From: Burkholderiales bacterium
GTDB taxonomy: Bacteria; Pseudomonadota; Gammaproteobacteria; Burkholderiales; Casimicrobiaceae
NCBI GenBank assembly: GCA_020851235.1
Contig: JADZDD010000035.1
Location: forward strand, 310,001-374,000
Length of the DNA: 64,000 bases
Reading direction: 5' to 3'
Shown in pieces: positions 6,667-28,628 of the stretch. Made by a program: the position numbers and the translations under genes. The notes beneath the pieces are model-generated. The model made no database searches, had not been told where the DNA came from, and saw only the letters and a list, made by a program, of their open reading frames with translations. Positions within the stretch are counted from its first letter, which is position 1; each line of letters starts with the position of its first letter.

Positions 6667-6680
6667 TTGACCTGGATCAA
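6667..6680. promoter_or_regulatory. FNR/ANR-type box upstream of ccoN
   Basis: TTGACCTGGATCAA matches the FNR consensus TTGAT-N4-ATCAA at nine of ten conserved positions. It lies about 165 bases before ccoN. A class II promoter would place transcription start near 6715. Oxygen-limited activation of cbb3 genes by FNR/ANR/FixK regulators is well established. Confidence 0.75.
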
Positions 6681-13743: not shown

Positions 13744-15663
13744 CTACGCCGGCGCGGCACTCCCCGGCTCGGCGCCACCCGCCGGCGTGAACGCGTCGGA
13801 GTAGCACGCGTCCTCGTGCAGCCCTTGCGTCACGAAGGCCGGGCGCGCTGCCGCGACCATGCGCACCGAGCCGCAGGCGTACACGGAGAAGCCGGACAGG
13901 TCCGGAAAGTCGGCGAGGATCGCCTCGTGCACGAGTCCGGTGCGCCCGGACCAGGCATCCTCCGGTGCGGCTTCGGAGAGCACCGGGACGAAGTGGAAAT
14001 TGGGATGCTCGCGCGCCCAGCGCTCGGGCAACTCGGTCAGGTACAGGTCGCGCCGCTGGCGCACCCCCCAGTACAGATACAGCGGCCGCTCGATGCCCAT
14101 GCGAAACGCCTGCTCGAGCAGGCTCTTCACCGGTGCGAAGCCGGTTGCGCCCGCGACGAAGATGAGCGGCTTCTCGCTCGGCTCGTGCAGGACGAACGAA
14201 CCCACCGGCCCTTCGAGCGTGAGGCGATCGCCCACCTTCATCGAATCGAAGACGCGTGAGGTGAACAGCCCTCCCGGCATGCGTCGCACGTGCAGTTCGA
14301 TGAGACCGGTCGTGCCCGACGGGGTCGTGAACGAATAGCTGCGGCGCGCGCCGTCTTCGAGCACGACGTTGACGTACTGCCCGGCCTCGAAGGCGATCTC
14401 GCGCCCGTCGACCAGGCGCAGCGCCACGAGCATCACGTCGTGCGCGAGCGGGGCGAGCCGCTCCACCTGCGCCTCGTAGGTGTCGATCTGCGTGCCGCGA
14501 GCGGCCGCGTCCTGCTCGTACTCGAACTCGACGTCGGACAGGGCGCGCGCGCAGCACAGCAGGATGCGACCCGCGCGACGCTCTTCGGCGGACAGCGCGC
14601 TCGGTTGATAGCCCGACATCTCGACCTCGCCGCCGATCATCGTCGCCTTGCACACGCCGCAGCCGCCCGAACGGCATTCGTACGGCAAGGGGATGCCGGC
14701 ACGCAGGCCGGCATCGAGCAGCGTCTCGCCGACGCGCACCGGCGCCCCCTGCCGACCCGGGTGCGCGGTCAGGTGATACGCGCGACCCTTGCCGGTCCGC
14801 GCGGGCGGCAACCACGGCAGCGCGAGCAAGAGCGCGGTGACGCCGGCGCAGAGGATCCACAGCTTGAGCGGATCCCAGGCGTAGATGAGCGGGTAGACGA
14901 GGAGGTAGAACCAGTCGAAATCGAGGTTCGTCGGCACCGTGGAGAAGTCCGCGGGCGCCTGGCTCACCACCGGCTTGACGACGGACAGGACGAGGAGCAT
15001 CGCCACGAGCCCGTACGCGAGACGCCGCGGCGGCATCTGCGCCGCACGCGGCACGCGCTGCGTGTGGATCCACAGCGCGAGCATCACGACGAGCGGGATG
15101 CCGATGTGCAGGAACGACAGGAGCGAGAAGAGGCGGTCGGTGATCGCGTCGGGCGTGATGAAGTTCCGCGTCAGGATCCCGTTGAAGACCGGCAACGAGT
15201 CGAGCCATTCGGTGGTCCCGATCACGACGAACTGGGCGAGCTTGTCCCAGGGCAGCATGAAGCCGTTCACGCCCGACGCGTAGACGAGCCAGAGCACGAC
15301 GACGCCGGTGACCCAGGAGAAGGCGCGGAAGCTGCGATAGCGGTCGAAAGCGAAGTGCCGCAGCATGTGCAGCAGCATCGTCAGCACCATCGCGTCGGAC
15401 GCGTAGCGATGGATGCTGCGCATGATGCCGCCCGCGAACCACTGCCCGTGCGTGATCGCCTCCATCGACGCGTACGTCTTGTTGACGCCGGTCTCGTAGA
15501 ACGCGTAGACGTACAGGCCGCTCGCGACGACGATCCAGAACATCCAATAGCTCGTCGCGCCGAGGTAATACATCGGATTCAGCCGATCGCCGAACACCCG
15601 ATTGCCGACGGCCTCCATCCGCAGGAAGAACCACTGCAGGAAGCCTTGGACGATCTTGAGCAA
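13744..15663 (-). CDS. Cytochrome b - [2Fe-2S] - flavin reductase fusion
   Basis: A 639-residue three-part redox protein. Residues 1-285 form a membrane cytochrome b of the b/b6 N-terminal type: His85/His99 and His186/His200, both 14 apart, would bind two b hemes. Residues 295-385 are a plant-type [2Fe-2S] ferredoxin (Cys330, 335, 338 and about 370). The remainder is a ferredoxin-NADP+ reductase-type module with FAD motif RRSYSFTTPSG, nucleotide segment FVAGATGFAPVKSL and C-terminal YACGSVRM. A TTG at 15663 with GGAGG six bases upstream is preferred; a GTG at 15714 has no ribosome site. It could link NAD(P)H to quinone through the membrane hemes. It diverges from the heme-copper operon, and its cytochrome part is paralogous to that at 20245-21879. 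Confidence 0.85.
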   Translation of the reverse strand: MLKIVQGFLQWFFLRMEAVGNRVFGDRLNPMYYLGATSYWMFWIVVASGLYVYAFYETGVNKTYASMEAITHGQWFAGGIMRSIHRYASDAMVLTMLLHMLRHFAFDRYRSFRAFSWVTGVVVLWLVYASGVNGFMLPWDKLAQFVVIGTTEWLDSLPVFNGILTRNFITPDAITDRLFSLLSFLHIGIPLVVMLALWIHTQRVPRAAQMPPRRLAYGLVAMLLVLSVVKPVVSQAPADFSTVPTNLDFDWFYLLVYPLIYAWDPLKLWILCAGVTALLLALPWLPPARTGKGRAYHLTAHPGRQGAPVRVGETLLDAGLRAGIPLPYECRSGGCGVCKATMIGGEVEMSGYQPSALSAEERRAGRILLCCARALSDVEFEYEQDAAARGTQIDTYEAQVERLAPLAHDVMLVALRLVDGREIAFEAGQYVNVVLEDGARRSYSFTTPSGTTGLIELHVRRMPGGLFTSRVFDSMKVGDRLTLEGPVGSFVLHEPSEKPLIFVAGATGFAPVKSLLEQAFRMGIERPLYLYWGVRQRRDLYLTELPERWAREHPNFHFVPVLSEAAPEDAWSGRTGLVHEAILADFPDLSGFSVYACGSVRMVAAARPAFVTQGLHEDACYSDAFTPAGGAEPGSAAPA

Positions 15664-15974
15664 CGTCAACCTCCGTGATGCCGAGCGTCCGACCCGGCCC
15701 GGCGCCGGTGGCACGCGACACGCGCCGCACGCAGCGCGCGAAAAGATGTGGAAACTAGCGACAACGCGCCATCATTGCAAGGCGGCGCGGCAAAACGATG
15801 CGAAAGCGACACTTCGGGCGGATGCCGTTGCGCCCTGTTCCATTGTGCATTGCCGCGGCACCACAACCGGGTTACCTTTGATGCAGGTCAAGGCGGGCAT
15901 GGGCCGTGCCCAACCATGATGCCCGGTGTTGCCGATTCCGTTGCCAATCTTTCGACAAGAAGGGGGGAGCCGCC
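15664..15974. other. Divergent intergenic region of the heme-copper cluster
   Basis: A 311-base region without a convincing gene between the cytochrome b-reductase fusion (leftward) and the small membrane subunit (rightward). It is less GC-rich than its surroundings and holds an FNR-type box at 15878-15891. Promoters for both directions are expected here, but I cannot place the -10/-35 elements reliably. Confidence 0.6.
15878..15891. promoter_or_regulatory. FNR/ANR-type box upstream of the heme-copper operon
   Basis: TTGATGCAGGTCAA matches TTGAT-N4-ATCAA at nine of ten conserved positions. Its centre is about 90 bases before the start at 15975, compatible with a class II promoter with transcription starting near 15926. 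The same kind of box precedes ccoN, so both terminal-oxidase loci appear tied to low-oxygen control. Confidence 0.72.
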
Positions 15975-16154
15975 ATGGCTGACCATACTCGAACGCAGCC
16001 CGAAAACCAAGAAGAGGACATCCCCGTGATGCAGCGGATCCTCGACAATCCTTTCCTGTTGCTGTTCCTCGGCGTGGTGATCCCCACCGTCCTGTATATC
16101 CTCTGGGGCGTCATGGAAATCGCGACCGTGCCGGTCACGCCGCTCGCCAAGTGA
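15975..16154 (+). CDS. Small membrane subunit preceding the CuA subunit
   Basis: A 59-residue protein starting at an ATG with a strong GGGGGAG ribosome site; in-frame codons upstream lack one. A polar N-terminus precedes one hydrophobic helix, NPFLLLFLGVVIPTVLYILW. Position directly before subunit II and I of a B-family-like heme-copper enzyme suggests an accessory subunit, comparable in place to the short helix subunit of ba3 oxidases. The similarity is one of topology only. Confidence 0.65.
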   Translation: MADHTRTQPENQEEDIPVMQRILDNPFLLLFLGVVIPTVLYILWGVMEIATVPVTPLAK

Positions 16155-16182
16155 ACGATCCGCGAGCCATCAGGAGAGAACC

Positions 16183-16722
16183 GTGAGTGCCATACTGCCC
16201 CCGCAGCATCGTATCTGGTGGAAGCAGCCGGTCGACAAGATCGAGATCGTCTGGATCGTCATCGCCTTCGTGTGGTGCATGATCATGTTCTTCATGATGC
16301 CGTACTGGCACGTGTTCGGTAAGCAGAACCTCTCCACCGAGACGTACCGCGTCAAGCCCGAGCTCTTCGCGAAGGCCACGCAGGAGATGGTCGACAAGTA
16401 CACCGTGCGTACCGAGGGTCCCAACAAGGTGCCGGTCGTGGCGCCGCCCGCGGGCAGCGACGTCTACCTCATCGCGCGCCTCTGGGACTGGTGGCCGATC
16501 CTCGAGCTCGAGAACGGCAAGAGCTACCGGCTCAACCTGACCTCGATGGACTACCAGCACGGCTTCTCGCTGCAGCCGGAGAACATCAACATCCAGATCC
16601 TTCCGGGGTACCAGCACGTGGTGACGGTGACGCCAAACCGCACCGGCCAGTACGCCATCGTCTGTAACGAATTCTGCGGCATCGGCCATCACAAGATGGT
16701 GTCGCGGCTCTACGTCAAGTGA
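16183..16722 (+). CDS. Heme-copper oxidoreductase subunit II with CuA site
   Basis: A 179-residue subunit II: one membrane helix (about residues 22-42) and a periplasmic cupredoxin domain. The CuA ligands are present: His in MDYQHGFS and the CNEFCGIGHHKM cluster (Cys, Cys, His, Met). A single N-terminal helix and short length resemble ba3-type CbaB and sNOR NorS rather than aa3 CoxB. A GTG start at 16183 has AGGAGAG upstream. CuA implies electron delivery from a cytochrome c or cupredoxin to the catalytic subunit encoded 11 bases downstream. Confidence 0.87.
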   Translation: MSAILPPQHRIWWKQPVDKIEIVWIVIAFVWCMIMFFMMPYWHVFGKQNLSTETYRVKPELFAKATQEMVDKYTVRTEGPNKVPVVAPPAGSDVYLIARLWDWWPILELENGKSYRLNLTSMDYQHGFSLQPENINIQILPGYQHVVTVTPNRTGQYAIVCNEFCGIGHHKMVSRLYVK

Positions 16723-16733
16723 TCGGGGGGACC

Positions 16734-18440
16734 ATGGCAACCGCCGCTGCGCAGTATCGTATTTGCCCCCGCACGGGGCTGCAGTTCCACAAGTCGGCCG
16801 AGGCGCTCATCAAGGTCAACGCCGTCGCGGGCGTCGTTGCGCTGCTGCTAGGCGGCGTGCTCGCGCTCCTGATCACCCTCACCCGGTGGCAGGCAGTCCA
16901 TCTCATCGACGCGAACGAGTTCTACCTGATCCTGACCGCGCACGGTCTCGACATGCTCGTGGTCTGGATCATCTTCTTCGAGATGGCGATCCTGTACTTC
17001 TGCTCGTCGACGCTGTTGCGTTGCCGGCTCGCGACGCCCAGGCTCGCGTGGTTCGCCTTCGCGCTGATGGTGATCGGCACGGTCACGTTCAACGTCGTGA
17101 TCTTCACCGGCGATGCGACGGTGATGATGACCTCGTACCCGCCGATGCCCGCGCATCCGGCGTTCTACCTGGGCCTCATCCTCTTCGCGGTCGGCGCGCT
17201 CATCGGCTGCTTCATCTTCCTCGGCACGCTCGTCGTCGCCAAGGCCGAGAAGACGTATGAGGGCTCGGTGCCGCTCGTCACCTTCGGCGCGATCACGGCG
17301 TGCATCATCGCGATCTTCACCATCGCCTCGGGCGCCATCATCCTGATCCCGACCTTCCTGTGGTCGGCGGGCTACATCAGCCACATCGACCCGGCGATGT
17401 ACCGCGTGATCTGGTGGGCGTTTGGCCACTCGGCGCAGCAGATCAACGTCGCGGCGCACATCGCGGTGTGGTACGCGATCGCGGCAATCGTCTTCGGCGC
17501 GAAGCCCATGTCCGAGCGCGTGAGCCGCTTCGCGTTCCTGCTCTACATCCTGTTCCTGCAGCTGGCCTCGGCGCACCACATCCTCGCCGATCCGGCGGTC
17601 GGAACCGAGTGGAAGGTGTTCAACACGAGCTACGCGATGTACCTCGCGGTGCTCGCGTCGATGCTGCACGGCCTCACCGTGCCGGGCGCGATCGAGGCGG
17701 CGCAGCGTGCCAAGGGCTACACCAAGGGCCTGTTCGAGTGGCTGCGCAAGGCGCCGTGGGGCAATCCCGTGTTCTCGGGGATGTTCATCTCGCTCATCGG
17801 CTTCGGCTTCCTGGGCGGCATCTCGGGCGTGATGATGGGCACCGAGCAGCTCAACATGATCATCCACAACACGATCTACGTTCCTGGCCACTTCCACGCC
17901 ACGGTCGTGATCGGCACCACGCTCGCGTTCATGTCGCTCACGTACTTCCTGTTGCCGACGCTGTTCAACCGCGAACTGATCCTGCCCGGTTGGGCGAAGT
18001 TGCAGCCGTACGTCTTCGGCCTCGGGATGGGCGCGTTCACGCTCGCGATGATGGGTGCGGGGACGCTCGGCGTGCCGCGCCGTCACTGGGACATCACGTT
18101 CGCCGGTGCGGCGCTGCCGTACGAGTTCCCGGGCACGGCGCTGCTCATGATCGCGATCTTCGGCATCGCCGGCGTCATTGCGGTGATCGGCGGAGCGATG
18201 TACATCGTGGTCACGGTGGGCACGATCCTCTTCGGCAAGAAGCTCGATGCCGGCGCCTACTCGACGAAGGTCACGCCGCTGCGCCTGCCCGTCCAGGTTT
18301 CGCTCGTCGAGGACGGCGGTCACGGTGGCGGCTGGGGCGTGCCGGGGACCTTCGTGTTCGCGATGGTGTTCCTGGTCGCTTTCGTGCTGTACTACTTCGT
18401 CAACTGGAAGTACCTGTCCACGGTCTGGGGCTTGAGCTAG
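16734..18440 (+). CDS. B-family-like heme-copper subunit I, NO-reductase-like active site
   Basis: A 568-residue catalytic subunit with about 12-14 helices. Candidate ligands: low-spin heme His70 (TAHGLDML) and His388, high-spin heme His386 (VPGHFHATVV), CuB His232, His281 and His282 (SAHHILAD). On helix VI the sequence is WWAFGHSAQQINV: the residue four after the CuB His, Tyr in A- and B-family oxygen reductases and Glu in cNOR/qNOR, is Gln236. That argues against ordinary oxygen reduction and for an NO-reductase-like enzyme. CuA subunit II + subunit I + SCO recalls norSY-senC (sNOR) of ammonia oxidisers. The ATG at 16734 after GGGGGG is preferred over a GTG at 16719. A divergent oxygen reductase remains possible. 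Confidence 0.85.
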   Translation: MATAAAQYRICPRTGLQFHKSAEALIKVNAVAGVVALLLGGVLALLITLTRWQAVHLIDANEFYLILTAHGLDMLVVWIIFFEMAILYFCSSTLLRCRLATPRLAWFAFALMVIGTVTFNVVIFTGDATVMMTSYPPMPAHPAFYLGLILFAVGALIGCFIFLGTLVVAKAEKTYEGSVPLVTFGAITACIIAIFTIASGAIILIPTFLWSAGYISHIDPAMYRVIWWAFGHSAQQINVAAHIAVWYAIAAIVFGAKPMSERVSRFAFLLYILFLQLASAHHILADPAVGTEWKVFNTSYAMYLAVLASMLHGLTVPGAIEAAQRAKGYTKGLFEWLRKAPWGNPVFSGMFISLIGFGFLGGISGVMMGTEQLNMIIHNTIYVPGHFHATVVIGTTLAFMSLTYFLLPTLFNRELILPGWAKLQPYVFGLGMGAFTLAMMGAGTLGVPRRHWDITFAGAALPYEFPGTALLMIAIFGIAGVIAVIGGAMYIVVTVGTILFGKKLDAGAYSTKVTPLRLPVQVSLVEDGGHGGGWGVPGTFVFAMVFLVAFVLYYFVNWKYLSTVWGLS

Positions 18441-18516
18441 GCGACAGCGCCGTGCCCATGCAATCCAAACCGGCGGCGCCGGGCTGCGATCCGCGGTCCG
18501 GCGCTGGAGTCCTGGC

Positions 18517-19383
18517 ATGAAGGCGTTGCTCAATCTCTTCAAGCTGCGCATCGGCGTGGCGATCGCGCTCACCGCGGTCGCCGGCCTGATGATCTCGCCG
18601 GGAGGCACGCTGTCCGCGTGGCAGAGCGTGATCCTGACGCTCGCGGTGCTCCTCTCGTCGGCTGCGGCGGGCGCGTTCAACCAGTTCTACGAGGTCGACC
18701 TCGACGCGCGGATGGCGCGCACCCGACGCCGCCCGTTCGTGAGCGGGCAGATGCGGCACCATCGCGGCTGGCTCGCGCTCATCGTCGCGCTCACCGGGAT
18801 CGCGGTGGCCGCCGCCTGGCTCGCCACCAACGCCACCGCCGCGCTGTACACGTTCCTCGGCGCCTTCTTCTACGCCATCGTCTACACGGTGTGGCTCAAG
18901 CGCCGCAGCCCCTGGAACATCGTGATCGGGGGATTGGCCGGCAGCTTCGCGGTGCTCGCGGGCGCCGCGGCGGTCTCGCCGCAGCTGTCGCCGGAAGCGC
19001 TCGTTCTCGCTTTGGTCCTGTTCCTCTGGACGCCCCCGCATTTCTGGAGCCTCGCGATCGTGTGTCGCGACGACTACGCGAGCGTGGGGGTTCCGATGCT
19101 GCCGGTGGTCAAGGGCGATCGCTTCGCGGCGTGGACGATTTTCTGGCACTCGATCGCCATGGTCGGGTGCTCGCTGGCCCTCGGGTTCCTGGGTCCGGGC
19201 TGGATCTACCTCGCGAGTGCCGCCAGCGGTGGCGCGCTCTTCATCTGGAGGGCCTGGCTCCTCGCGCGCACGCCGAATCGCGCCAATGCCGCAGCGAGCT
19301 TCCACGCGTCGCTCATCCAGTTGTCGCTGCTTCTCCTGGGAACCATCGCCGACGGGTGGATGAGGGCCTCGCTCGGGGCCTGA
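18517..19383 (+). CDS. ctaB: Heme O synthase (protoheme IX farnesyltransferase)
   Basis: A 288-residue UbiA-type prenyltransferase that adds a farnesyl chain to heme B to give heme O. The allylic diphosphate site is NQFYEVDLDARMARTRRRP near residue 62, and the second conserved loop is YTVWLKRRSPWNIVIGG. Several hydrophobic helices are present. It sits in the heme-copper operon, so the adjacent enzyme probably carries heme O or A; a CtaA-like gene lies at the other end of the same run. The gap to subunit I is 76 bases. Confidence 0.93.
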   Translation: MKALLNLFKLRIGVAIALTAVAGLMISPGGTLSAWQSVILTLAVLLSSAAAGAFNQFYEVDLDARMARTRRRPFVSGQMRHHRGWLALIVALTGIAVAAAWLATNATAALYTFLGAFFYAIVYTVWLKRRSPWNIVIGGLAGSFAVLAGAAAVSPQLSPEALVLALVLFLWTPPHFWSLAIVCRDDYASVGVPMLPVVKGDRFAAWTIFWHSIAMVGCSLALGFLGPGWIYLASAASGGALFIWRAWLLARTPNRANAAASFHASLIQLSLLLLGTIADGWMRASLGA

Positions 19384-19387
19384 CGTC

Positions 19388-20239
19388 GTGGCCGGTCGCG
19401 CGCTGCGCCGCTTCCCCGTCACGCGCGCGACGGCGGCTTGGCTCGTTGCCGGCGCGCTCGTGCTCGTTGCGCCGACACCGGCAGCGACGGCGGCAGCCGA
19501 GGCGACGACCACGGATCGATCCCGCGATTACCAGCAGGTGATCGCGACGAGTCAGGCAGCGATCGGCCGGCCCCTGCTCGATGTGCGCCTTCGCGACACC
19601 GCCGGCAAGGACGTGCGTCTGCGGGACTTCCAGGGTCGCCCGCTGCTCGTGAGCCTCGTCTACACCGGCTGCTTCCAGGCCTGCCCGGTGACGACGCAGT
19701 TTCTCGCGCAGGCGGTGCGCGAGGCGCGCCGCGCCTTGGGCGAAGACAGCTTCACGGTCGTGTCGATCGGCTTCAACCAGCCCTTCGACACCCCCGCCGC
19801 CATGGCCGCGTTCAAGCGCCAGAACCGCATCGACGAGGCCGACTGGCACTTCCTCAGCCCCGACCCGACGCAGGTCGACGCGCTCACCGCCAATCTGGGC
19901 TTCGTCTACGAAGCCACGCCCAAGGGCTTCGACCACGTGACGCAGGTGACGATCGTCGACGGCGAAGGCGTCATCTATCGCCAGGTCTACGGCGAGACGT
20001 TCGACCTGCCGATGCTCGTGCAGCCGCTCAAGGAGTTACGCCAGGGCGAAGCCTCGCGCGCGGTCACGCTCGACAACGTCTGGGAGAAGGTCGTGCTCTA
20101 CTGCACGGTCTACGACCCGCAAACCGGCGCCTACCGCGTCAACTACTCATTGTTCTTCGAGATCTTCGCAGGCCTCACCACCCTGGGGGCGGTCGCCTGG
20201 TTCACGCTGCGGGAGCTACGACGGACGAAGCGTGTCTGA
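19388..20239 (+). CDS. SCO/SenC-family copper chaperone with C-terminal helix
   Basis: A 283-residue thioredoxin-fold protein. It has an N-terminal membrane/signal segment (about residues 15-36), the copper-binding CFQACP motif and the distal His in KGFDHVTQV, the complete Cys-x3-Cys/His set of SCO proteins. Unusually, a second hydrophobic helix (ALTTLGAVAWFTLRE region) ends the protein, after a region resembling the extended SCO proteins encoded with ba3-like enzymes. It would build the CuA centre of the adjacent subunit II. The GTG start lies four bases after ctaB, and a five-base gap leads to the next gene. Confidence 0.88.
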   Translation: MAGRALRRFPVTRATAAWLVAGALVLVAPTPAATAAAEATTTDRSRDYQQVIATSQAAIGRPLLDVRLRDTAGKDVRLRDFQGRPLLVSLVYTGCFQACPVTTQFLAQAVREARRALGEDSFTVVSIGFNQPFDTPAAMAAFKRQNRIDEADWHFLSPDPTQVDALTANLGFVYEATPKGFDHVTQVTIVDGEGVIYRQVYGETFDLPMLVQPLKELRQGEASRAVTLDNVWEKVVLYCTVYDPQTGAYRVNYSLFFEIFAGLTTLGAVAWFTLRELRRTKRV

Positions 20240-20244
20240 GTCGC

Positions 20245-21879
20245 GTGGCTCGACCTGTCACCGATCTGCGCCGGGAGCTTCGCCCGCACTCCGCCCTCCC
20301 GCCGCTTGCCTTGCCCGCGCCGACGGGGAGCGCCGGCGCGCCCGCGGCGCTCTGGCGTGCGGCGGAGTCCGCGCTCGATCGCCTGTGCGGCGTGGACGAC
20401 AATCCCCTGCGCCAGCTGGGGGCGATCGGCTTCTACCTTTTCTGGCTCATCGCCGTGACGGGGGGCTATCTTTACATCTTCTACGAAACGAGCGTCGCCG
20501 GCGCGCACGCCTCGGTCGAAGCACTCACGCACGGCCAGTGGTGGGCGGGCGGCGTGATGCGAAGCCTCCACCGCTATGCCTCGGATGCCTTCATCGCCGT
20601 GATCGTCCTGCACCTCGTGCGCGAGCTCATGCTCGGGCGCTTTCGCGGCTTCCGCTGGTACAGCTGGGTGAGCGGCGTGCCGACGTTGTGGCTCGCGGTG
20701 GCGGCCGGCGTCGTCGGCTACTGGATGGTGTGGGACGACCTCGCGCTGTTCGTGGCGACCGCCACCACCGAATGGTTCGGCGCGCTTCCCGGGTTCGGTG
20801 CGGCGCTCGTGCGCAACTTCATCGCCGAGGGGGCGGTGTCGGATCGCCTGTTTTCGTTGGTCGCCTTCCTCCACATCGGCCTGCCGCTCGTGTTGCTCCT
20901 CGTGATGTGGATGCACGTGCAGCGGCTGACGCGGCCGCAGACGGGAACGACGCGCCGCGTGGCCCTCACGGGACTCGCCGCGCTCGTCGCGCTGTCGCTC
21001 GTCGCGCCGGCGGTCTCCGGGCCGCCGGCCGACCTCACGCGGATCGCGACGAGCCTGCCGATCGACTGGTTCTACCTCGCCCCGCTGCCCGCGCTGTACA
21101 CCGCCTCGCCGGAAGCGGTCTGGGTCGCAAGCGTCGGTGCGACGCTGCTTCTGGTCGTGGCGCCGTGGCTCGGACGCACGCCGCGGCCGCGGCCGGCGGT
21201 GGTCGAGCCGGCGCATTGCAACGGTTGCCGGCGCTGCTTCGACGATTGCCCCTACGCCGCGATCGCGATGGCGGCGCACCCGAGCGGCAAGGGCGAGATC
21301 GCCGTGGTCGACGCCGACCGTTGCGCCTCATGCGGGATCTGCGCGGGGTCGTGCCCCTCGGCCGTCCCCTTCCGCTCGACCGCAACGCTCGCAAGCGGCA
21401 TCGACCTGCCGCATTTCACGGTCGACATGCTGCGTGCCGCCATCGACGCGACGCTGCGGCCTGCCGGCACGGCCGGGACCACGCTCGTCTTCGCCTGTGG
21501 CCACGGCGCCGCACCCACACCTCAGCCCGGGCTCGCCATCTTCACGCTGCCCTGCGCGGGCCTGCTGCCGCCGACCTTCGTCGAGTACGGCCTGCGCCTG
21601 GGCGCGACCGGTGTCGTGGTCGTAACGTGTGCTCCGGGCGATTGCGAATACCGCTTCGGGTTACGATGGACGCTCGAGCGGCTCGAGGGCACGCGTCCGC
21701 CGCGTCTGCGCCGCAGCGTCGACCGGTCGCGGCTCGCGGTGATCCAGGCCGGCCCCGGGAGTCGAGCGGCCCTCGATCGCGACATCGAAGCATTCCGCGC
21801 GCGGCTTGCTGCCCGCGCAACAGGTTCGGCAGCCGGCGGCACGAGCCGCCCCACGCTTGGAGAAACGACCCATGGCTAA
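20245..21879 (+). CDS. Cytochrome b - 2[4Fe-4S] - MvhD-like fusion
   Basis: A 544-residue fusion. Residues 55-310 form a cytochrome b N-terminal module with His109/His123 and His210/His224 as bis-His ligands of two hemes. Residues 322-375 hold two [4Fe-4S] motifs (HCNGCRRCFDDCP; RCASCGICAGSCP). The C-terminus resembles the delta subunit of methyl-viologen-reducing hydrogenase (MvhD), with Cys418, Cys437 and CAPGDCEY (Cys462, Cys467). MvhD-type domains carry electrons to heterodisulfide-reductase-type partners. No hydrogenase or Hdr gene is in the window, so the partner is unknown. The GTG at 20245 is the only start codon fitting after the SCO stop; the ribosome site is weak, suggesting coupling. 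Its cytochrome part is clearly paralogous to the 13744-15663 product. Confidence 0.85.
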   Translation: MARPVTDLRRELRPHSALPPLALPAPTGSAGAPAALWRAAESALDRLCGVDDNPLRQLGAIGFYLFWLIAVTGGYLYIFYETSVAGAHASVEALTHGQWWAGGVMRSLHRYASDAFIAVIVLHLVRELMLGRFRGFRWYSWVSGVPTLWLAVAAGVVGYWMVWDDLALFVATATTEWFGALPGFGAALVRNFIAEGAVSDRLFSLVAFLHIGLPLVLLLVMWMHVQRLTRPQTGTTRRVALTGLAALVALSLVAPAVSGPPADLTRIATSLPIDWFYLAPLPALYTASPEAVWVASVGATLLLVVAPWLGRTPRPRPAVVEPAHCNGCRRCFDDCPYAAIAMAAHPSGKGEIAVVDADRCASCGICAGSCPSAVPFRSTATLASGIDLPHFTVDMLRAAIDATLRPAGTAGTTLVFACGHGAAPTPQPGLAIFTLPCAGLLPPTFVEYGLRLGATGVVVVTCAPGDCEYRFGLRWTLERLEGTRPPRLRRSVDRSRLAVIQAGPGSRAALDRDIEAFRARLAARATGSAAGGTSRPTLGETTHG

Positions 21880-22378
21880 CTTGACGCTGCGCTACGGTGG
21901 ACAGGCGATCCTCTACGTCCTGTTTGCCGCGTTCGTCGGCTACTTCTCGACCTCGCCGCCGTACCAGCACCTGCCCCCGGACCAGGCGCTGCTGCGGCTG
22001 TCGTTCCGCGCCCCGGGGCAGCTCACCACCGACTGCCGTCCGCGCAGCCCCGAAGAGCTCGCCAAGATGTCACCCCAACTGCGCGCGCAGATGGACTGCC
22101 CGCGCGAGCGCTCGCCGGTGCACGTGCGGGTCGACCTCGACGGCAAGCTCATGCTGGACGAGACCTTCGCCCCGGCGGGGCTGCGCCGCGACGGTGCCGC
22201 GAGCGGCTACCGCCGTCAGCCGATCCCGGCCGGCGAGCACCTCCTGCGCGTGCAGGTGAACGACAGCGTTCGCGTCAAGGGCTTCACGCACGAGGCGGAA
22301 CGGCGCCTCACGCTCGCGCCCGGACAGGTGGTCCTGATCGACTTCCTTCCCGACCAGGGCGGGGTGGTGATCCGTTGA
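21872..22378 (+). CDS. Membrane-anchored protein of unknown function
   Basis: A 168-residue protein of no family I recognise. The ATG at 21872 overlaps the end of the previous gene and follows TTGGAG. One N-terminal helix (about residues 9-27) is followed by a soluble domain, probably periplasmic. This contains two Cys (in LTTDCRPRSPEEL and AQMDCPRERSP), an acidic VRVDLDGKLMLDETF strand and a repeated beta-like pattern ending VVLIDFLPDQGGVVIR. The position between the MvhD-fusion cytochrome and the second heme-copper subunit suggests a subunit or assembly factor of that complex. Confidence 0.7.
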   Translation: MANLTLRYGGQAILYVLFAAFVGYFSTSPPYQHLPPDQALLRLSFRAPGQLTTDCRPRSPEELAKMSPQLRAQMDCPRERSPVHVRVDLDGKLMLDETFAPAGLRRDGAASGYRRQPIPAGEHLLRVQVNDSVRVKGFTHEAERRLTLAPGQVVLIDFLPDQGGVVIR

Positions 22379-22385
22379 GTCGAGG

Positions 22386-23858
22386 ATGGCAACGGCAGGC
22401 GACCCGGTGCGACGCATCGGCGCGGCGGGATCTCCGGTGAGCAACGCGCCACCGGCCGGCTCCGCGCGCACGTTCGAGCGTGCCGCGGAGGTGCTGCGCG
22501 CGGCTCGCTTCGACATTCCCGTCCCCGCCGCGGGCCAGCGTGCCATCGCCACCGGCTGGCTGCTGCTCGGCGTCGCGGCGCTCGTCGGCGCCGGCGTGTT
22601 CTCGATCCTGCTCGTGCTCGCCCGCACGCCGTTCTTCGCCGGATTCGTTCCTGCCGGTGACTTCTTCCGCGTGGCCCTCGTCGTCCACGTCGACCTGTCG
22701 GTCCTCGTGTGGTTCGTGTCGATGGCGGGCGTGCTGTGGACGCTCGACACCTCGCCCCGGCTCGTGGGCCTGGGCTGGCTCGCGCTGGGTGTCACCGGGG
22801 CAGGAACCGCGCTCATGGCGGCGGCACCGTTCACCGGAGCCGCGACTCCGGTCATGTCGAACTACGTGCCGGTCCTCGACAACCCGACGTTTCTTGCCGG
22901 GCTCATCGTGCTCGGGGGCGGATTCACGCTGCTCACGCTGCGCTCGTTCGTCGCCCCGGCGCGCATGAGCCTCACCCTCGACGGCACCGACGCGCTGCGC
23001 TTCGGCCTCAAGGCCGCGGCGGTGTCGAGCGCGCTTGCGCTGATGGCGCTCGTGTGGTCGCTCGTCGAGGTGCCACGCGAGCTCGACGCGCTCACCTATT
23101 ACGAACTCCTCTTCTGGGGACCGGGGCACGTCGTGCAGTTCACCTGGACGCTGCTCATGCTGGTCGCCTGGGCGTGGCTTGCCACCCTCGCGAACTCGCC
23201 GCTGCCGCTGTCCTCCCGCGTCGTCGCGCTCATCTATGCGATCGGGCTCGTCTCGGTGTTCGTCGCCCCGCTCATCTATCTCAACTGGACCGTGGTTTCG
23301 GTCGAGCATCGGCGCATGATGACCTGGCTCATGCGCTTCGGCGGCGGACTCGCGATCCTGCCGATGGTACTGGCGCTCGCGGTGGCCCTGGTGCGCCAGC
23401 GCAGCACCACCCCGACGACGCGCCCGTTGCGAGCGGCGCTCGTCGCATCGCTTTTGCTGTTTTCCGCCGGCGGCCTCATCGGCTTCCTCATCAAGGGCTC
23501 CGACGTGCGCATTCCCGCGCACTACCACGGCTCGATCGTCGGCGTGACGCTCGCACTCATGGGACTCGCCTACGCGCTGCTGCCACGACTGGGCTTTCGC
23601 GAGGTCGAGGGCCGCATCGCCGACTGGCAACCGTGGCTGTACGGCGGCGGGCAGTTGCTGCACATCCTGGGCCTGTTGTGGTCCGGTGGTTACGGCGTGC
23701 AGCGCAAGGTGGCCGGCGCCGAGCAGACGCTGCGCAGCACGCAGGAAGTCCTCGGCATGGGCTTGATGGGGCTCGGTGGGCTCCTCGCCATCGCCGGCGG
23801 CATGTTCTTCGTTTGGGTGGTGCTCGACAGTGTCCTGCGCACCCGCGCCGCCCGATGA
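22386..23858 (+). CDS. Divergent heme-copper subunit I-like protein
   Basis: A 490-residue membrane protein with the PF00115-type layout of about 12 helices. Candidate ligands: low-spin His101 (VVHVDLSVLVWF) and His381, high-spin heme His379 (IPAHYHGSIVG), CuB His248 (WGPGHVVQFTW). The usual CuB His-His pair reads EHRRMM here: His308 is present but the second position is Arg309. The residue four after His248 is Phe, not Tyr, Glu or Gln. The active site therefore differs from oxygen reductases and from the subunit at 16734-18440. It may be an unusual NO reductase branch or an electron-transfer subunit. Starts at 22386 or 22437 are possible. It is coupled to the CtaA-like gene (ATGA). Confidence 0.75.
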   Translation: MATAGDPVRRIGAAGSPVSNAPPAGSARTFERAAEVLRAARFDIPVPAAGQRAIATGWLLLGVAALVGAGVFSILLVLARTPFFAGFVPAGDFFRVALVVHVDLSVLVWFVSMAGVLWTLDTSPRLVGLGWLALGVTGAGTALMAAAPFTGAATPVMSNYVPVLDNPTFLAGLIVLGGGFTLLTLRSFVAPARMSLTLDGTDALRFGLKAAAVSSALALMALVWSLVEVPRELDALTYYELLFWGPGHVVQFTWTLLMLVAWAWLATLANSPLPLSSRVVALIYAIGLVSVFVAPLIYLNWTVVSVEHRRMMTWLMRFGGGLAILPMVLALAVALVRQRSTTPTTRPLRAALVASLLLFSAGGLIGFLIKGSDVRIPAHYHGSIVGVTLALMGLAYALLPRLGFREVEGRIADWQPWLYGGGQLLHILGLLWSGGYGVQRKVAGAEQTLRSTQEVLGMGLMGLGGLLAIAGGMFFVWVVLDSVLRTRAAR

Positions 23859-24856
23859 TCCGCCTCCTCGCCGTCGTTGCCGCGCTCGCGACGGTGTGCA
23901 TCACGGCGTCGAGCGCCTTCATCCGCCACGCCCAGAACGGCGTGGGCTGCGCGGATTGGCCCGCGTGCTACCGCGCGATGGCGACGGCGCCGCACGGGCC
24001 CGGACCCGCCGCTACCGTCGGGCACGCGGGCAGCGATGTGGCGAGCCCGGCGCAGCGCGCGACGGCGACGACCGACCTGCCGGGCGTGCGTGCGGCGCGG
24101 GCGCTGCATCGGGCCAGTGCAACGCTCGTCGGCGTCGTCGTCCTCTTTGTCGCGGTACTCGGCTGGTCGGCGCTCGCGGCCGCGGGGCGTGGGGTGGCTG
24201 CGGCGGCCGTGGTCGTCACCGCATTCCTCGCCTGGCTCGGCCGCTACACGCCACACGATCTGCCGCTCGTCACGCTCGGCAACCTCCTGGGCGGGCTCGT
24301 GCTGACCGCAGCGCTGGCGTGGGTTGCCGCGGCACTGCGGGTGAAGAGCAAGGCGACCCCGCCGCCGGCCGCAACCGCGCCCGCCGCGCGTACCGGACCT
24401 CCCGTTGCCGCGGCCGCGATCCGGCGCGGCGCCCTCGCCGCACTCGCGCTGCTCGCGCTCGCTGCGTGGACCGGCACGATGATCGGTGCCCGCCACGCGA
24501 TCGACGCCTGCGGGGCGGCGCCGTGTGCAAGCGGCGTGCAGTGGGTAGCGGCAGCCTTCGACCCCTTCCAGGCGTTGGCTCCCGTCGAGGCCGGCGCGGG
24601 GCGGGGGCTCCACGTGGCGCACCGGGTCGTGACGCTCGCCTTCGCCGTCGTGGTGGGGCTCGTGGCGTGGCGGCTGCGCCGGGTGCAGCGGGGACTCGCC
24701 GTAGCGCTGGCGCTGCTCGTCGTCGCCCAGGTGCTCATCGGCGCGGCGACCGTGCAAGGCGCCCAGCCGCTCGTCTCGACGACGCTGCACAACGCGGTGG
24801 CCGCGCTCCTTGCGCTGGTGCTGGGATTCGCCGCCGGACGCGCCACCCGGGCGTAA
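23855..24856 (+). CDS. COX15/CtaA-family heme A synthase-like protein
   Basis: A 333-residue polytopic membrane protein. The early segment HAQNGVGCADWPACYR corresponds to the conserved region after helix 1 in COX15/CtaA, and heme-ligand His candidates occur in RALHRASAT, HVAHRVVTLA and TTLHNAVAAL, matching the paired helical-bundle design of the family. Two Cys (CGAAPCASG) between the halves recall the redox-active Cys loop of bacterial CtaA. Together with CtaB it suggests heme A production for this cluster, but related proteins lacking that activity exist. The ATG overlaps the previous stop. Confidence 0.8.
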   Translation: MIRLLAVVAALATVCITASSAFIRHAQNGVGCADWPACYRAMATAPHGPGPAATVGHAGSDVASPAQRATATTDLPGVRAARALHRASATLVGVVVLFVAVLGWSALAAAGRGVAAAAVVVTAFLAWLGRYTPHDLPLVTLGNLLGGLVLTAALAWVAAALRVKSKATPPPAATAPAARTGPPVAAAAIRRGALAALALLALAAWTGTMIGARHAIDACGAAPCASGVQWVAAAFDPFQALAPVEAGAGRGLHVAHRVVTLAFAVVVGLVAWRLRRVQRGLAVALALLVVAQVLIGAATVQGAQPLVSTTLHNAVAALLALVLGFAAGRATRA

Positions 24857-25343: not shown

Positions 25344-25449
25344 GGCGGCATTCTAAGGCCACGGACCCGTTACGACAGCCGAACACGATCGGTATAGACT
25401 GCCACGTTGCACCGCGGTATTGCCACCACCGCGGGCGTGCTGGCACCCC

Positions 25450-26868
25450 GTGAAGCTCGTTCTCCCACTGAAGCTCGTCGCTCCGCTCGCGCTCGGCATG
25501 GTCGCGTCGCTCGCCATCGCGCTCTATGCCGAACTCGGGTATCGCCGACTCGAGGTCGCCAATCGACAGATGGCCACCGCACTCGAGCTGCAGGCGTCGC
25601 TGCACGAGGCGCTGGCGCTGGTCGTCGACGCCGAGACGGGACAGCGTGGCTACCTGCTCACCGGCAAGAAGGAGTATCTCGCCCCGTACGAGAATGCGCT
25701 GCCGAAGATCGGCAGCACCTTCAACCGCCTGCGCGAGATGCTCGTGACCTACGGCACGCCGGAGGAGCGGCACGCCTTGGGCCGGCTCAACAGCCTCGTC
25801 GGCCAGAAGCTCGCGGAGCTCGAGACGGCGCTCGCGCTGTACCGGCGCAGCGGCGATACCGCGGCGCAGGCGCTGCTCGACACCGGCATCGGACGGCGCG
25901 CGATGGACGACATCCGCCTCGAGGTCGATGCCATGACGGCGGCGCAGCAGGCGCAACTCACCGCCGCGATGCACCGCTGGTCCGACGACGTCGCCTTCGC
26001 GCGCCTCGGCATGCAAATCATGACGGGGTTCACCATCGCGCTCCTGCTCGTCGTCTGGCTCCTCGCCCGGCGCGACGCGCAGCAGCGTGAAGCGCGGCGC
26101 CGCACGATGGTCGAGGACAAGCGCCGGCTCGAAAGCGAGGTCGAGCAGCGCACCGCCGAACTCTCGGAGCTATCGAGCTACCTGCAACGGGTGCGCGAGG
26201 ACGAGAAGTCGAAGCTCGCCCGCGACATCCACGATGAATTGGGCGGCATCCTCGTCAGCGCGAAGATGGACGTGGCGTGGGTGGAGGATTACCTGCGCAA
26301 GCGCAAGGATCCGCAGATCACCGCCAAGCTCGAGCGCGCGCTGCAAGCGCTCGACGACGGCGTGCAGATCAAGCGGCGAATCATCGAGGACCTGCGCCCG
26401 ACGATGCTCGACAACCTCGGCCTGTCGGCCGCCCTGGACTGGCAGGTTCGCGAGGTCTGCGACCGCGCCGGTCTCGTCTGCACGATCGACACGCCCGCCG
26501 ACGACAGCGGGATTCCGTCCGAGATCGCCATCGCCTTGTACCGGATCCTGCAGGAGGCACTCACCAATATCGTGAAGTACGCGCAGGCGAAGACGGTTCG
26601 TGTCGATCTCGGCGTGACGTCAACCGACATCACGCTGTTGATCGAGGACGACGGGATCGGCATCCCCGACGACGCGCAGGCCAACCTGCTCTCGCACGGG
26701 ATCGCCGGGATGCGCCAGCGCGTCCGCGCGCTTCACGGCGAGTTCGCGATCTCCCGCCGTCCCGAGCGCGGGACCCTCATCGAAGTCAACGTGCCGCTTC
26801 CGGCGCCGCGGACCGGGCATCCTGCACCGGCCACGGCCGACGCGCCGGCGGGAATCACGCCGCCTTGA
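25450..26868 (+). CDS. CHASE3 sensor histidine kinase, NarX/DegS type
   Basis: A 472-residue membrane sensor kinase. Helix 1 (about residues 8-27) and helix 2 (about 197-215) enclose a CHASE3 sensor domain with the hallmark DAETGQRGYLLTGKKEYL. A coiled linker leads to a HisKA_3 domain with phospho-acceptor His261 in ARDIHDELGG, then an HATPase domain with NIVKYAQAKTV and DDGIGIP / GIAGMRQR boxes. The GTG at 25450 is preferred over a TTG at 25420. HisKA_3 kinases pair with NarL-type regulators, and one lies at 27996-28628. The ligand is not predictable from CHASE3. The 3' end overlaps the convergent hemerythrin gene by 14 bases. Confidence 0.88.
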   Translation: MKLVLPLKLVAPLALGMVASLAIALYAELGYRRLEVANRQMATALELQASLHEALALVVDAETGQRGYLLTGKKEYLAPYENALPKIGSTFNRLREMLVTYGTPEERHALGRLNSLVGQKLAELETALALYRRSGDTAAQALLDTGIGRRAMDDIRLEVDAMTAAQQAQLTAAMHRWSDDVAFARLGMQIMTGFTIALLLVVWLLARRDAQQREARRRTMVEDKRRLESEVEQRTAELSELSSYLQRVREDEKSKLARDIHDELGGILVSAKMDVAWVEDYLRKRKDPQITAKLERALQALDDGVQIKRRIIEDLRPTMLDNLGLSAALDWQVREVCDRAGLVCTIDTPADDSGIPSEIAIALYRILQEALTNIVKYAQAKTVRVDLGVTSTDITLLIEDDGIGIPDDAQANLLSHGIAGMRQRVRALHGEFAISRRPERGTLIEVNVPLPAPRTGHPAPATADAPAGITPP

Positions 26869-27367
26869 GCTTCATCGACAGGCGCGCCTTGGTCGCGTTG
26901 AAGCGGCGACCCATCGCGTTGCGCTCGTCATCGTCGAAGATCTCCTCGATGGCGGGCAGCAGGTGCGTGCGCTCCTCCTCGATGTGGCGCTCGAGGATGT
27001 CGAAGAGGACCTTCGCGTGCGCCTTCCACTCGTCGGTCTCGGTCTTGCGGCTCTTGACGAGCTTCTCCAGGAGATCGTCGACCACGCCGTGCTTGACGTA
27101 GCCTTCGTAGGCGAGCGAACGCAGGCCATCGTCGCCCCGCGCGAGCAGCGGGTCGTAGACATCGCGCTCCTGCGCGCGCGCGTGCAGCGCCATCGCCGGC
27201 CGCAACTGGCGCAGCAGCGCGCGCCGCTCGTCACCGCTTTCGGATTCGTACATGTCGCGGGCGAGGATGAGGATCTCGTCGTGGTCGCTGCGCACGAGCG
27301 TGCGGATGTCGAGCGCGTTCATCGTGGGCGCTTCGAGCAGGAGCTTGATTTCGTCGACTAGGGTCAT
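26855..27367 (-). CDS. Hemerythrin-like HHE domain protein
   Basis: A 170-residue all-alpha protein with the HHE pattern: His in RSDHDEIL, His in MALHARAQERDVYDPLL, and His-x3-Glu in LERHIEEERTHLLPAIEE, with another His in EGYVKHGVVDDL. These would form a non-heme di-iron site that can bind oxygen or NO. It is convergent with the kinase gene and 30 bases upstream on its own strand is the stop of the lone receiver, so it may be co-transcribed with the regulators. An internal ATG at 27322 is an alternative start. A sensing or stress role is inferred. Confidence 0.82.
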   Translation of the reverse strand: MTLVDEIKLLLEAPTMNALDIRTLVRSDHDEILILARDMYESESGDERRALLRQLRPAMALHARAQERDVYDPLLARGDDGLRSLAYEGYVKHGVVDDLLEKLVKSRKTETDEWKAHAKVLFDILERHIEEERTHLLPAIEEIFDDDERNAMGRRFNATKARLSMKLKAA

Positions 27368-27397
27368 GATCGGAACCGTTACGTTGGAGGTCGATAA

Positions 27398-27817
27398 TCA
27401 ATGCGTCGCCGCCGAGCCTCCGGCGGCAAGGGAGCTCAGGATTTCGCGCACCCGGTGGAACTCCCGCGCCTTGTCGAAGAAGTAGTCCGCACCGAGTGCG
27501 AGACTCCTCTCGCGATACTGTGGAAACGCAAAATTGGTGAAGACAATGACCGTCGCATTCGGCGGCCGGACACCTTGCGCCAGTGCCTTCAGCACGCCGA
27601 GTCCCGTGCCCTGCTTCAACTGGAGGTCGAGCACGACGGCGTCCCAGCCCGTCTCGCGCAGCATGGCGATCGCCGCCGCCTCATTCTCGACCTGACCGAC
27701 GATCGTGAGATTGGGGATCTCATCCAGCGTCTCGGTCAGGCGCGCGCGGATGCGCGCGGAATCCTCGACGATCACGACGCGCAGGCCGGAGCAATCCGAC
27801 GACACGCTGTGCTGCAT
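27398..27817 (-). CDS. Single-domain response regulator (receiver only)
   Basis: A 139-residue CheY-like receiver without output domain. The acidic pocket is in VVIVEDSARIR, the phospho-Asp in WDAVVLDLQLKQGTG, the switch Thr/Ser in VIVFTNFAFP, and the conserved Lys in YFFDKAREF. The ATG at 27817 follows AAGGA at a good distance; upstream in-frame codons produce a basic, non-conserved extension. It lies between the hemerythrin and the NarL-type regulator and may act as a phosphate sink or act on the kinase. Confidence 0.82.
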   Translation of the reverse strand: MQHSVSSDCSGLRVVIVEDSARIRARLTETLDEIPNLTIVGQVENEAAAIAMLRETGWDAVVLDLQLKQGTGLGVLKALAQGVRPPNATVIVFTNFAFPQYRERSLALGADYFFDKAREFHRVREILSSLAAGGSAATH

Positions 27818-27995
27818 CGTTACGCTTTCCTTCGTCGTCACGAAACGGGTCAGGTTCATGTGCGGTTCGGGCGCCGCAATCACGCGCCCGACGGTGACGA
27901 GCGGCAAGCGCGGTTGCGGACCGCGCACCACGCGGCGCCGCCGGGCGATGCCGACCCGGGTTGAGATGCCGCCATGTGCTGCGGTCGGGGCGCGC

Positions 27996-28628
27996 TCAAT
28001 CGATGAGCCCGTTCTTGATGGCGTAGTAGGTGAGGTCCGCATTCGACTTCATCCCCATCTTCTCGAGGACGCGGGTCCGGTACGTGCTGACGGTCTTGAC
28101 CGACAGGTGGAGCTCGTCGGCAATGCGTGACACCGCCGCGCCGGCGGCGATCTTGCAGAAGATCTGGAACTCGCGTTGCGACAGCTCGCCGTGCAAAGGC
28201 TTGTCGGCATCGCCCGCGACGCCGGCGGCGAGGATCTGTGCGAGCCCCGGACTCACGAACTTGCGACCCAGCACGACCGTGCGGATGGCCCCGACGAGCT
28301 GGGTCGACGCCGCCTCCTTGCCGAGATAGCCTGCGGCTCCGGCCCGCAACAGGTTGACCGCGTACTGATCCTCGGCGTACCCGGAGAGCATCAGCACCGG
28401 CAAGGTCGGGCGCATCTGCTTGAGCGTCTTCAACGTGTCGATGCCGTTCTTGTCGGGCATCGAGATGTCGAGGAGCACGACGTCGTAATCGCCGGTGCGC
28501 ACGAGTTCGATGCACTGGCTGCCCGTGGCCGCCTCGCCCGCGACTTCCATGTCCGCCTGGTCGGCGATGAACTGCCGCAGACCCGCACGAACGATCGCGT
28601 GGTCATCGGCGATGAGGATCCGGATCAC
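27996..28628 (-). CDS. NarL/FixJ-family response regulator
   Basis: A 210-residue regulator: receiver (IRILIADDHAIVRAGLRQF, phospho-Asp in DVVLLDISMPDKNG, Lys in GYLGKEAAS) plus LuxR-type helix-turn-helix (LSQREFQIFCKIAAGA and LHLSVKTVSTYRTRVLEKM). The GTG at 28628 gives the typical start; an ATG at 28682 would add 18 residues. It is the natural partner of the HisKA_3 kinase at 25450-26868. Its targets may include the adjacent respiratory genes, an inference from location. Confidence 0.88.
   Translation of the reverse strand: MIRILIADDHAIVRAGLRQFIADQADMEVAGEAATGSQCIELVRTGDYDVVLLDISMPDKNGIDTLKTLKQMRPTLPVLMLSGYAEDQYAVNLLRAGAAGYLGKEAASTQLVGAIRTVVLGRKFVSPGLAQILAAGVAGDADKPLHGELSQREFQIFCKIAAGAAVSRIADELHLSVKTVSTYRTRVLEKMGMKSNADLTYYAIKNGLID

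Follow-up and report, generated by a model that had tools for sequence, protein, structure and literature searches.

What function could unite two cytochrome b fusion proteins, two heme-copper-fold proteins and the assembly genes ctaB, SCO and ctaA in one gene cluster? This question is raised by positions 13,744 to 24,856 of a 64,000-nucleotide stretch of DNA (hereafter the window; contig JADZDD010000035.1, positions 310,001 to 374,000, assembly GCA_020851235.1) from a Burkholderiales bacterium of the family Casimicrobiaceae. Comparative sequence analysis leads us to conclude that the core of the cluster, composed of a CuA-type subunit II and a heme-copper subunit I (HCO1), is almost certainly a nitric oxide reductase (NOR) of the eNOR type. 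Such cores are already known, although they are often overlooked. What appears to be new is a nearly invariant accessory set tied to proteobacterial eNOR, comprising two cytochrome b fusions (cytbFNR and cytbMvhD), a membrane-anchored protein (anchU) and a second heme-copper-fold protein (HCO2).

The best relative of solved structure for HCO1 is the Thermus ba3 oxidase (E 1e-49 to 5e-47), and that for the CuA protein is ba3 subunit II (E 5e-19). The CuA ligands are intact in 62 of 62 sequences, and the three CuB His and three heme His residues of HCO1 are retained in 61 of 61. The position of the cross-linked Tyr237 of ba3 is occupied in HCO1 by Gln241, with Gln present in 60 of these 61 sequences. 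According to Table A4 of PMC8756737, the diagnostic residue at this site is Tyr in oxygen reductases, Glu in cNOR/qNOR, Asn in sNOR/CuANor, Gln in eNOR and Asp in gNOR. HCO1 therefore carries the eNOR residue rather than the Asn of sNOR/bNOR, the Glu of cNOR/qNOR or the Tyr of a B-family oxygen reductase. Because the CuB His residues are kept and Gln is found at the catalytic Tyr position, we assigned the core to eNOR; the gene for CuA subunit II also adjoins that for subunit I, as expected for this type. The name sNOR, which was our first lead, was rejected since the diagnostic residue is not Asn.

Enzymes of the eNOR type, also named ba3-a1, are reported to use cytochrome c for NO reduction (PMC8879329), and were earlier termed degenerate B-family oxidases (PMC6431628). 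Plasmids of Thermus, Thermomicrobium and Defluviimonas carry copies that share this Gln and are 44-63% identical, and HCO1 groups with the Thermus and Thermomicrobium copies (support 89/85) in a tree that contained no verified eNOR sequence such as that of Rhodothermus marinus. Both Thermus copies are flanked by genes for an Rrf2 regulator and a DUF542 protein, and one also has a cytochrome P460 gene beside it, neighbors that we take as pointing to nitrosative stress. These Thermus subunits I (L167:11983-13665 and L168:11983-13668) carry HFK in helix X, with Lys at the expected low-spin heme His. Two other B-like heme-copper proteins (L171 and L172) have YH at the CuB pair and YFH at the helix X HxH motif; their genes adjoin those for a CuA protein and a P-type ATPase, and they appear to represent another degenerate oxidase.

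The elements of the cluster, in window coordinates, are as follows:

13744-15714, minus strand: cytbFNR, a fusion of b6-type cytochrome b, plant-type [2Fe-2S] domain and FAD/NAD(P) reductase (PF00033, PF00111, PF00970, PF00175)
15878-15891, plus strand: FNR/DNR-type box TTGATGCAGGTCAA between the divergent units, with one mismatch to TTGATN4ATCAA
15975-16151, plus strand: 'tiny', a 59-amino-acid, single-helix membrane peptide in front of the CuA gene
16183-16722, plus strand: CuA subunit II (PF00116)
16734-18440, plus strand: HCO1, the eNOR-type heme-copper subunit I (PF00115; start at 16734 or 16719)
18517-19383, plus strand: ctaB, heme O synthase (TIGR01473, 271 bits, cut-off 210)
19388-20239, plus strand: SCO-type copper protein (PF02630)
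20245-21879 (start uncertain), plus strand: cytbMvhD, b6-type cytochrome b with 2[4Fe-4S] and MvhD/FlpD domains (PF00033, PF12838, PF02662)
21872-22378, plus strand: anchU, one membrane helix and a beta domain (no Pfam or NCBIfam family)
22386-23858, plus strand: HCO2, a heme-copper-fold protein (PF00115, 52 bits)
23855-24856, plus strand: divergent CtaA/COX15-like protein (PF02628, 61 bits)

Every gene named in an earlier note, which was made from the letters of this DNA, is present where that note placed it, as judged by open reading frames and domain searches; the tiny peptide (15975-16151) and the box (15878-15891) were absent from it. The tight packing that it described is also borne out, with intergenic distances from ctaB onward of +4, about +5 (the start codon is uncertain), -8, +7 and -4 base pairs. 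The cytbFNR gene is divergent from the plus-strand run that extends from CuA to the CtaA-like gene.

The same gene set recurs in other genomes, and thus an order unique to this genome, which the earlier note had named among the results that would refute its idea, proved false. Among the matches listed, which may omit records very near the window's own genome, the nearest named relatives of HCO2 come from Burkholderiales metagenome-assembled genomes (MAGs) and isolates. Cultured species that carry the set include Simplicispira hankyongi, Comamonas granuli, Quisquiliibacterium transsilvanicum and Zeimonas arvi. Our named loci are the best 80 of at least 531 and were picked by HCO2, which is consequently present in 80 of 80 by construction. 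CuA, HCO1, SCO and HCO2 occur together in 62 of them, and the tiny peptide, for which a Pfam search gave no match, is present in 60 as well as beside the Defluviimonas, Thermomicrobium and one of the Thermus copies. Because the MvhD-type and reductase-type fusions recur in 74 and 64 of the 80 loci, respectively, with conserved cofactor ligands, we rejected the notion that they are assembly artefacts. Within the 62 full loci, cytbFNR is found in 55, where it is placed divergently in front (19), inside (20) or after HCO2 (16). This arrangement count and the box count given below cover the window and loci L056-L135 only, since some of the loci L036-L055 are from the same genomes. That the cytbFNR gene shifts its place yet remains close is good evidence for a shared function. 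Five named loci, among them gammaproteobacterial MAGs, have the same make-up without cytbFNR. The cbb3 genes, which adjoin the set in only one of the 80 loci within the flanks fetched, were rejected as part of the machine.

Unbiased co-occurrence counts were obtained from 180 genomes of the order Burkholderiales, in which an HCO1 match of at least 592 bits defined an eNOR genome. The 16 genomes so defined are spread over 12 families. HCO2, scored as present at 371 bits or more, is found in all 16 and in none of the 164 others, one of which (G170) holds a distant relative at 232 bits. Likewise, anchU is found in 16 of 16 and in one of the 164 (G178). Full-length cytbMvhD is encoded in 15 of the 16 (it is missing in G058) and in none of the others, and a further cytochrome b (cytbFNR wherever the locus was read) occurs in 15 (missing in G047) and in one other (again G178); for these fusion counts, at most seven candidates per genome were scored.

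A wider, phylum-wide sample of 328 genomes yielded 20 with HCO1 above 770 bits, 18 of them outside the order. Seventeen of the 18 carry cytbMvhD somewhere in the genome, and in the exception (G280) the eNOR locus is cut at the contig end. At the 17 of these 18 loci that were read, cytbMvhD and anchU lie beside the core in nine, and HCO2 and cytbFNR were seen at none of these 17 loci. The system therefore appears in tiers: the Thermus and Thermomicrobium plasmids carry the core by itself, Defluviimonas and genomes outside the order add cytbMvhD and anchU to it, and HCO2 and cytbFNR join the set within the order. Inheritance of these proteins together with eNOR in many denitrifying bacteria suggests that the enzyme has its own electron supply or its own assembly machinery.

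What, then, is the substrate? NirS (PF02239 at 476 bits or more; 49 genomes counted, 107 of 180 with some match) is encoded in all 16 eNOR genomes versus 33 of the 164 others (Fisher p=1.1e-10, kinship ignored), and lies within approximately 16 kb of HCO1 in six of the 16. NirK, counted only above its curated cut-off (20 of 180 genomes, with some match in 123), reaches that cut-off in none of the 16 (p=0.22). Genes resembling those for cNOR or qNOR were counted from NorB-like matches of at least 80 bits (64 genomes, with some match in 80), and over all 180 genomes their presence is unrelated to that of eNOR (8 of 16 versus 56 of 164, p=0.27). Among the 49 NirS genomes, however, such genes are absent in 8 of 16 with eNOR versus 3 of 33 without it (p=0.003). 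One of these three is G178, whose assembly is fragmented and has SCO, cytbFNR and anchU on a short contig, and thus its eNOR may be missing from the assembly. The NorB-type gene of the window's own genome (L004) shares no more than 36% identity with the matches from the other 179 genomes of the order.

In 35 of 61 loci, the DNA upstream of the first gene contains an FNR/DNR-type box that matches at 9 or more of 10 positions, with its center at a median of 90 base pairs before the start; shuffled controls gave a mean of 0.55 and a maximum of 3, and stretches inside HCO1 gave 0 of 68. A second such box, TTGACCTGGATCAA, lies at window positions 6667-6680, before the cbb3 genes. Among the neighbors that recur across the 80 named loci are a Crp/FNR-type regulator in 27, a NirD/L-like siroheme decarboxylase in 8, NnrS in 6 and two U32 proteins in 6 and 5. 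The two U32 genes can lie within the eNOR cluster itself, with SCO on one side and cytbFNR on the other (L047:11286-13697 and L054:3476-5462; by Pfam only). We presume these to be like UbiU and UbiV, and their location inside some copies of the cluster would point to anaerobic quinone use. Downstream of the cluster, window positions 25420-28042 encode a CHASE3 histidine kinase (plus strand), a hemerythrin-domain protein (minus) and a response regulator (minus).

Taken together, the replacement of the catalytic Tyr by Gln, the presence of NirS in 16 of 16 eNOR genomes and the FNR/DNR-type boxes make NO reduction by the core a well supported prediction, while O2 reduction is disfavored. The earlier reading of the system as an 'NO (or O2) reductase' is consequently well supported in its first half and disfavored in its second.

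Both fusions have kept their electron-carrier domains intact. In cytbFNR, the four heme His and four [2Fe-2S] Cys residues are invariant in 54 of 54 sequences. In cytbMvhD, four heme His residues (71 of 71), eight [4Fe-4S] Cys residues (at least 70 of 71) and four MvhD Cys residues (71 of 71) are conserved. Loop charges, crudely read, place the C-terminal carrier domains of both proteins in the cytoplasm. The best NCBIfam matches for the halves of cytbFNR are ExtP-type cytochrome b and BenC-type reductases, the reductase half resembling BenC/MmoC. The 2[4Fe-4S]-MvhD part of cytbMvhD matches HdrA2 at 64 bits, compared to a cut-off of 1100, and an HdrA-type flavoprotein is not among the recurrent neighbors of the loci, as judged by crude gene calling at the loci.

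The remaining two accessory proteins are HCO2 and anchU. The structural model of HCO2 has a full heme-copper fold (predicted local distance difference test score, pLDDT, of 90; template modeling score of approximately 0.7 to ba3), and a search of solved structures with an HCO2 profile gave no match. Residues H101, H248, H379 and H381 are present in 78 of 78 sequences, Glu307 in 77 and His308 in 76. Alignment with HCO1, cbb3, aa3 and NorB places Ile297-Tyr298 at the CuB His pair of helix VII, such that one of the three CuB His residues is kept, whereas an alternative profile alignment sets Glu307-His308 opposite this pair, such that two are kept. We prefer the former because it is gap-free through helix VII. 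Under either alignment HCO2 lacks the complete set of three CuB His residues of a heme-copper reductase, and the apparent loss of two of them, on which one alignment disagrees, implies that HCO2 is probably not a second reductase. Hence, where the earlier note counted two heme-copper subunits, HCO1 deserves the term, but HCO2 does so only with the reservation that its helix VII His pair is apparently absent. In a tree, HCO2 is placed beside subunit I of eNOR on a branch that is long and weakly supported (86/67), with the attendant warning of long-branch attraction. Distant relatives, 39-46% identical, are encoded at L055:7296-9407, L192:7220-9343 and L193:7397-9316. The first of these has a TPR tail and is located between genes for a multiheme cytochrome c, ResB and a CcsA-type protein and an ABC transporter/CcmF-type cluster; by eye, the gene order at L192 is the same, and L193 has a CcsA-like neighbor. 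In anchU (model pLDDT 96), Cys54 and Cys75 are invariant in 80 of 80 sequences, no Pfam or NCBIfam family was matched, and a fold search gave no significant hit (best E 0.015).

How might this set serve eNOR? We propose, tentatively and with slightly less than even confidence, that the fusions feed cytoplasmic electrons to NO reduction; the identity of the core is strong, whereas the mechanism of the accessory proteins is inferred. Some of the electrons that reduce NO would then come by a private route, in which the cytoplasmic NAD(P)H-reductase and 2[4Fe-4S]-MvhD domains of the fusions are reduced by NAD(P)H and by an Fe-S or flavin donor, and the electrons move on via two b hemes to reach quinone, HCO2 or eNOR itself. 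HCO2, whose heme-copper fold lacks a full CuB site, could be a heme relay or a docking subunit, and the two-Cys protein anchU may work with the MvhD fusion. With eNOR reducing NO to N2O, the cell would be able to remove NO without depending fully on complex III. Input from NAD(P)H and an Fe-S donor to the reductase is a reasonable inference. A stronger version strikes us as unlikely. It would have the two eNOR-specific b cytochromes oxidize NAD(P)H and low-potential Fe-S donors and deliver electrons through the CuB-less heme-copper relay to eNOR in one supercomplex, which would be a dedicated NAD(P)H/ferredoxin:NO oxidoreductase able to bypass quinone and complex III.

Several observations weigh against a private electron supply. 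The eNOR-like copies of Thermus and Thermomicrobium lack the fusions, which, given the reported use of cytochrome c, indicates that the enzyme can do its chemistry without such a feeder. The genes of the accessory set are intermingled with the assembly genes ctaB, SCO and ctaA, no donor for the MvhD domain is found among the recurrent neighbors, and the nearest relatives of HCO2 lie by cytochrome c maturation genes. Furthermore, the window's genome also carries a NorB of the cNOR kind by motif (L004, G000:C11:195115-196776), and thus NO removal there does not rest on the cluster alone. The main rival explanation, which we consider a serious but somewhat doubtful possibility, retains the eNOR core and proposes that the four accessory proteins build its heme and copper centers, the finished enzyme taking electrons from cytochrome c. 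The fusions would power heme A synthesis or keep periplasmic copper, thiols or heme reduced, anchU would be a chaperone, and HCO2 would handle heme. Such roles fit the way in which accessory genes are packed between SCO and ctaA, overlapping or a few bases apart, as well as the resemblance of the cytbFNR reductase half to the oxygenase reductases BenC and MmoC, since heme A synthesis is an oxygenase-like reaction that in yeast is fed by a ferredoxin system. They also fit the TPR-tailed HCO2 relative at L055, between a CcsA/ResB pair and Ccm genes, and its counterpart at L192. However, two large Fe-S/flavin reductases seem excessive for an assembly step, the Thermus and Thermomicrobium copies manage without them, and we know of no assembly factor with this type of fusion architecture.

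Two further explanations concern catalysis. HCO2 might be a second enzyme that reduces NO, using a His-Glu-His metal site and electrons from the cytochrome b fusions or from quinol, as the invariance of its heme His residues and one CuB His (78 of 78), the near-invariance of Glu307 and His308, and the profile alignment that sets the latter two at the CuB pair would allow. We regard this as quite improbable, because the alignment with HCO1, cbb3, aa3 and NorB sets Ile297-Tyr298 there instead, and because Defluviimonas and 9 of the 17 loci read outside the order carry eNOR, cytbMvhD and anchU without HCO2. Still less probable, and very unlikely indeed in our estimation, is that the core is a high-affinity B-family O2 reductase, as has been proposed for the sNOR of Nitrosomonas. 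The ba3 oxidase is the best solved relative of HCO1, a cbb3 cluster adjoins, and O2 reduction has been argued for B-type enzymes that bear the name NOR (PMC6967387), but Gln replaces the Tyr required to reduce O2 in 60 of 61 sequences, NirS accompanies eNOR in 16 of 16 genomes, and the cbb3 neighborhood is not conserved.

The earlier note knew of no named system with this composition. For the core, which matches eNOR, that view must be given up; for the accessory set it holds to the extent that we found no description in the literature searched, although surveys mention eNOR, and a published gene map may show part of the set, figures being outside the search. Denitrification relies on NO reductases to produce N2O, and 8 of the 16 eNOR genomes have NirS but no cNOR- or qNOR-like gene at 80 bits or more, so that surveys restricted to cNOR and qNOR would miss such bacteria. 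The accessory set supplies marker genes for proteobacterial eNOR and raises the question, testable in cultured species, of why an NO reductase should need its own cytochrome b-Fe-S protein. Moreover, a heme-copper fold with an incomplete CuB site is relevant to how the superfamily evolved.

The tiny peptide resembles, in position and size, the small subunit of ba3/CuA-type enzymes. Like the sNOR/bNOR (CuANOR) systems, the cluster combines CuA, a B-type subunit I, SCO and a small membrane peptide (PMC3475470), but those systems have Asn at the diagnostic position, and fusions of b cytochromes are not mentioned in the accessible part of the same source. The matches of cytbFNR to the ExtP and BenC families all fall far below the curated cut-offs, and the fusion is not a listed family. 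As in QmoABC and Hdr-MvhD systems, a membrane cytochrome b is joined to 2[4Fe-4S] and MvhD domains, although in cytbMvhD these form a single polypeptide with a b6-type cytochrome; the likeness to Qmo complexes is one that we presume. With eNOR (ba3-a1) itself, the cluster shares a CuA gene directly upstream of subunit I, intact CuB His residues and Gln at the catalytic Tyr position. It differs from the Thermus and Thermomicrobium plasmid copies, which are without all four accessory proteins, by the addition of cytbMvhD, anchU, HCO2 and cytbFNR.

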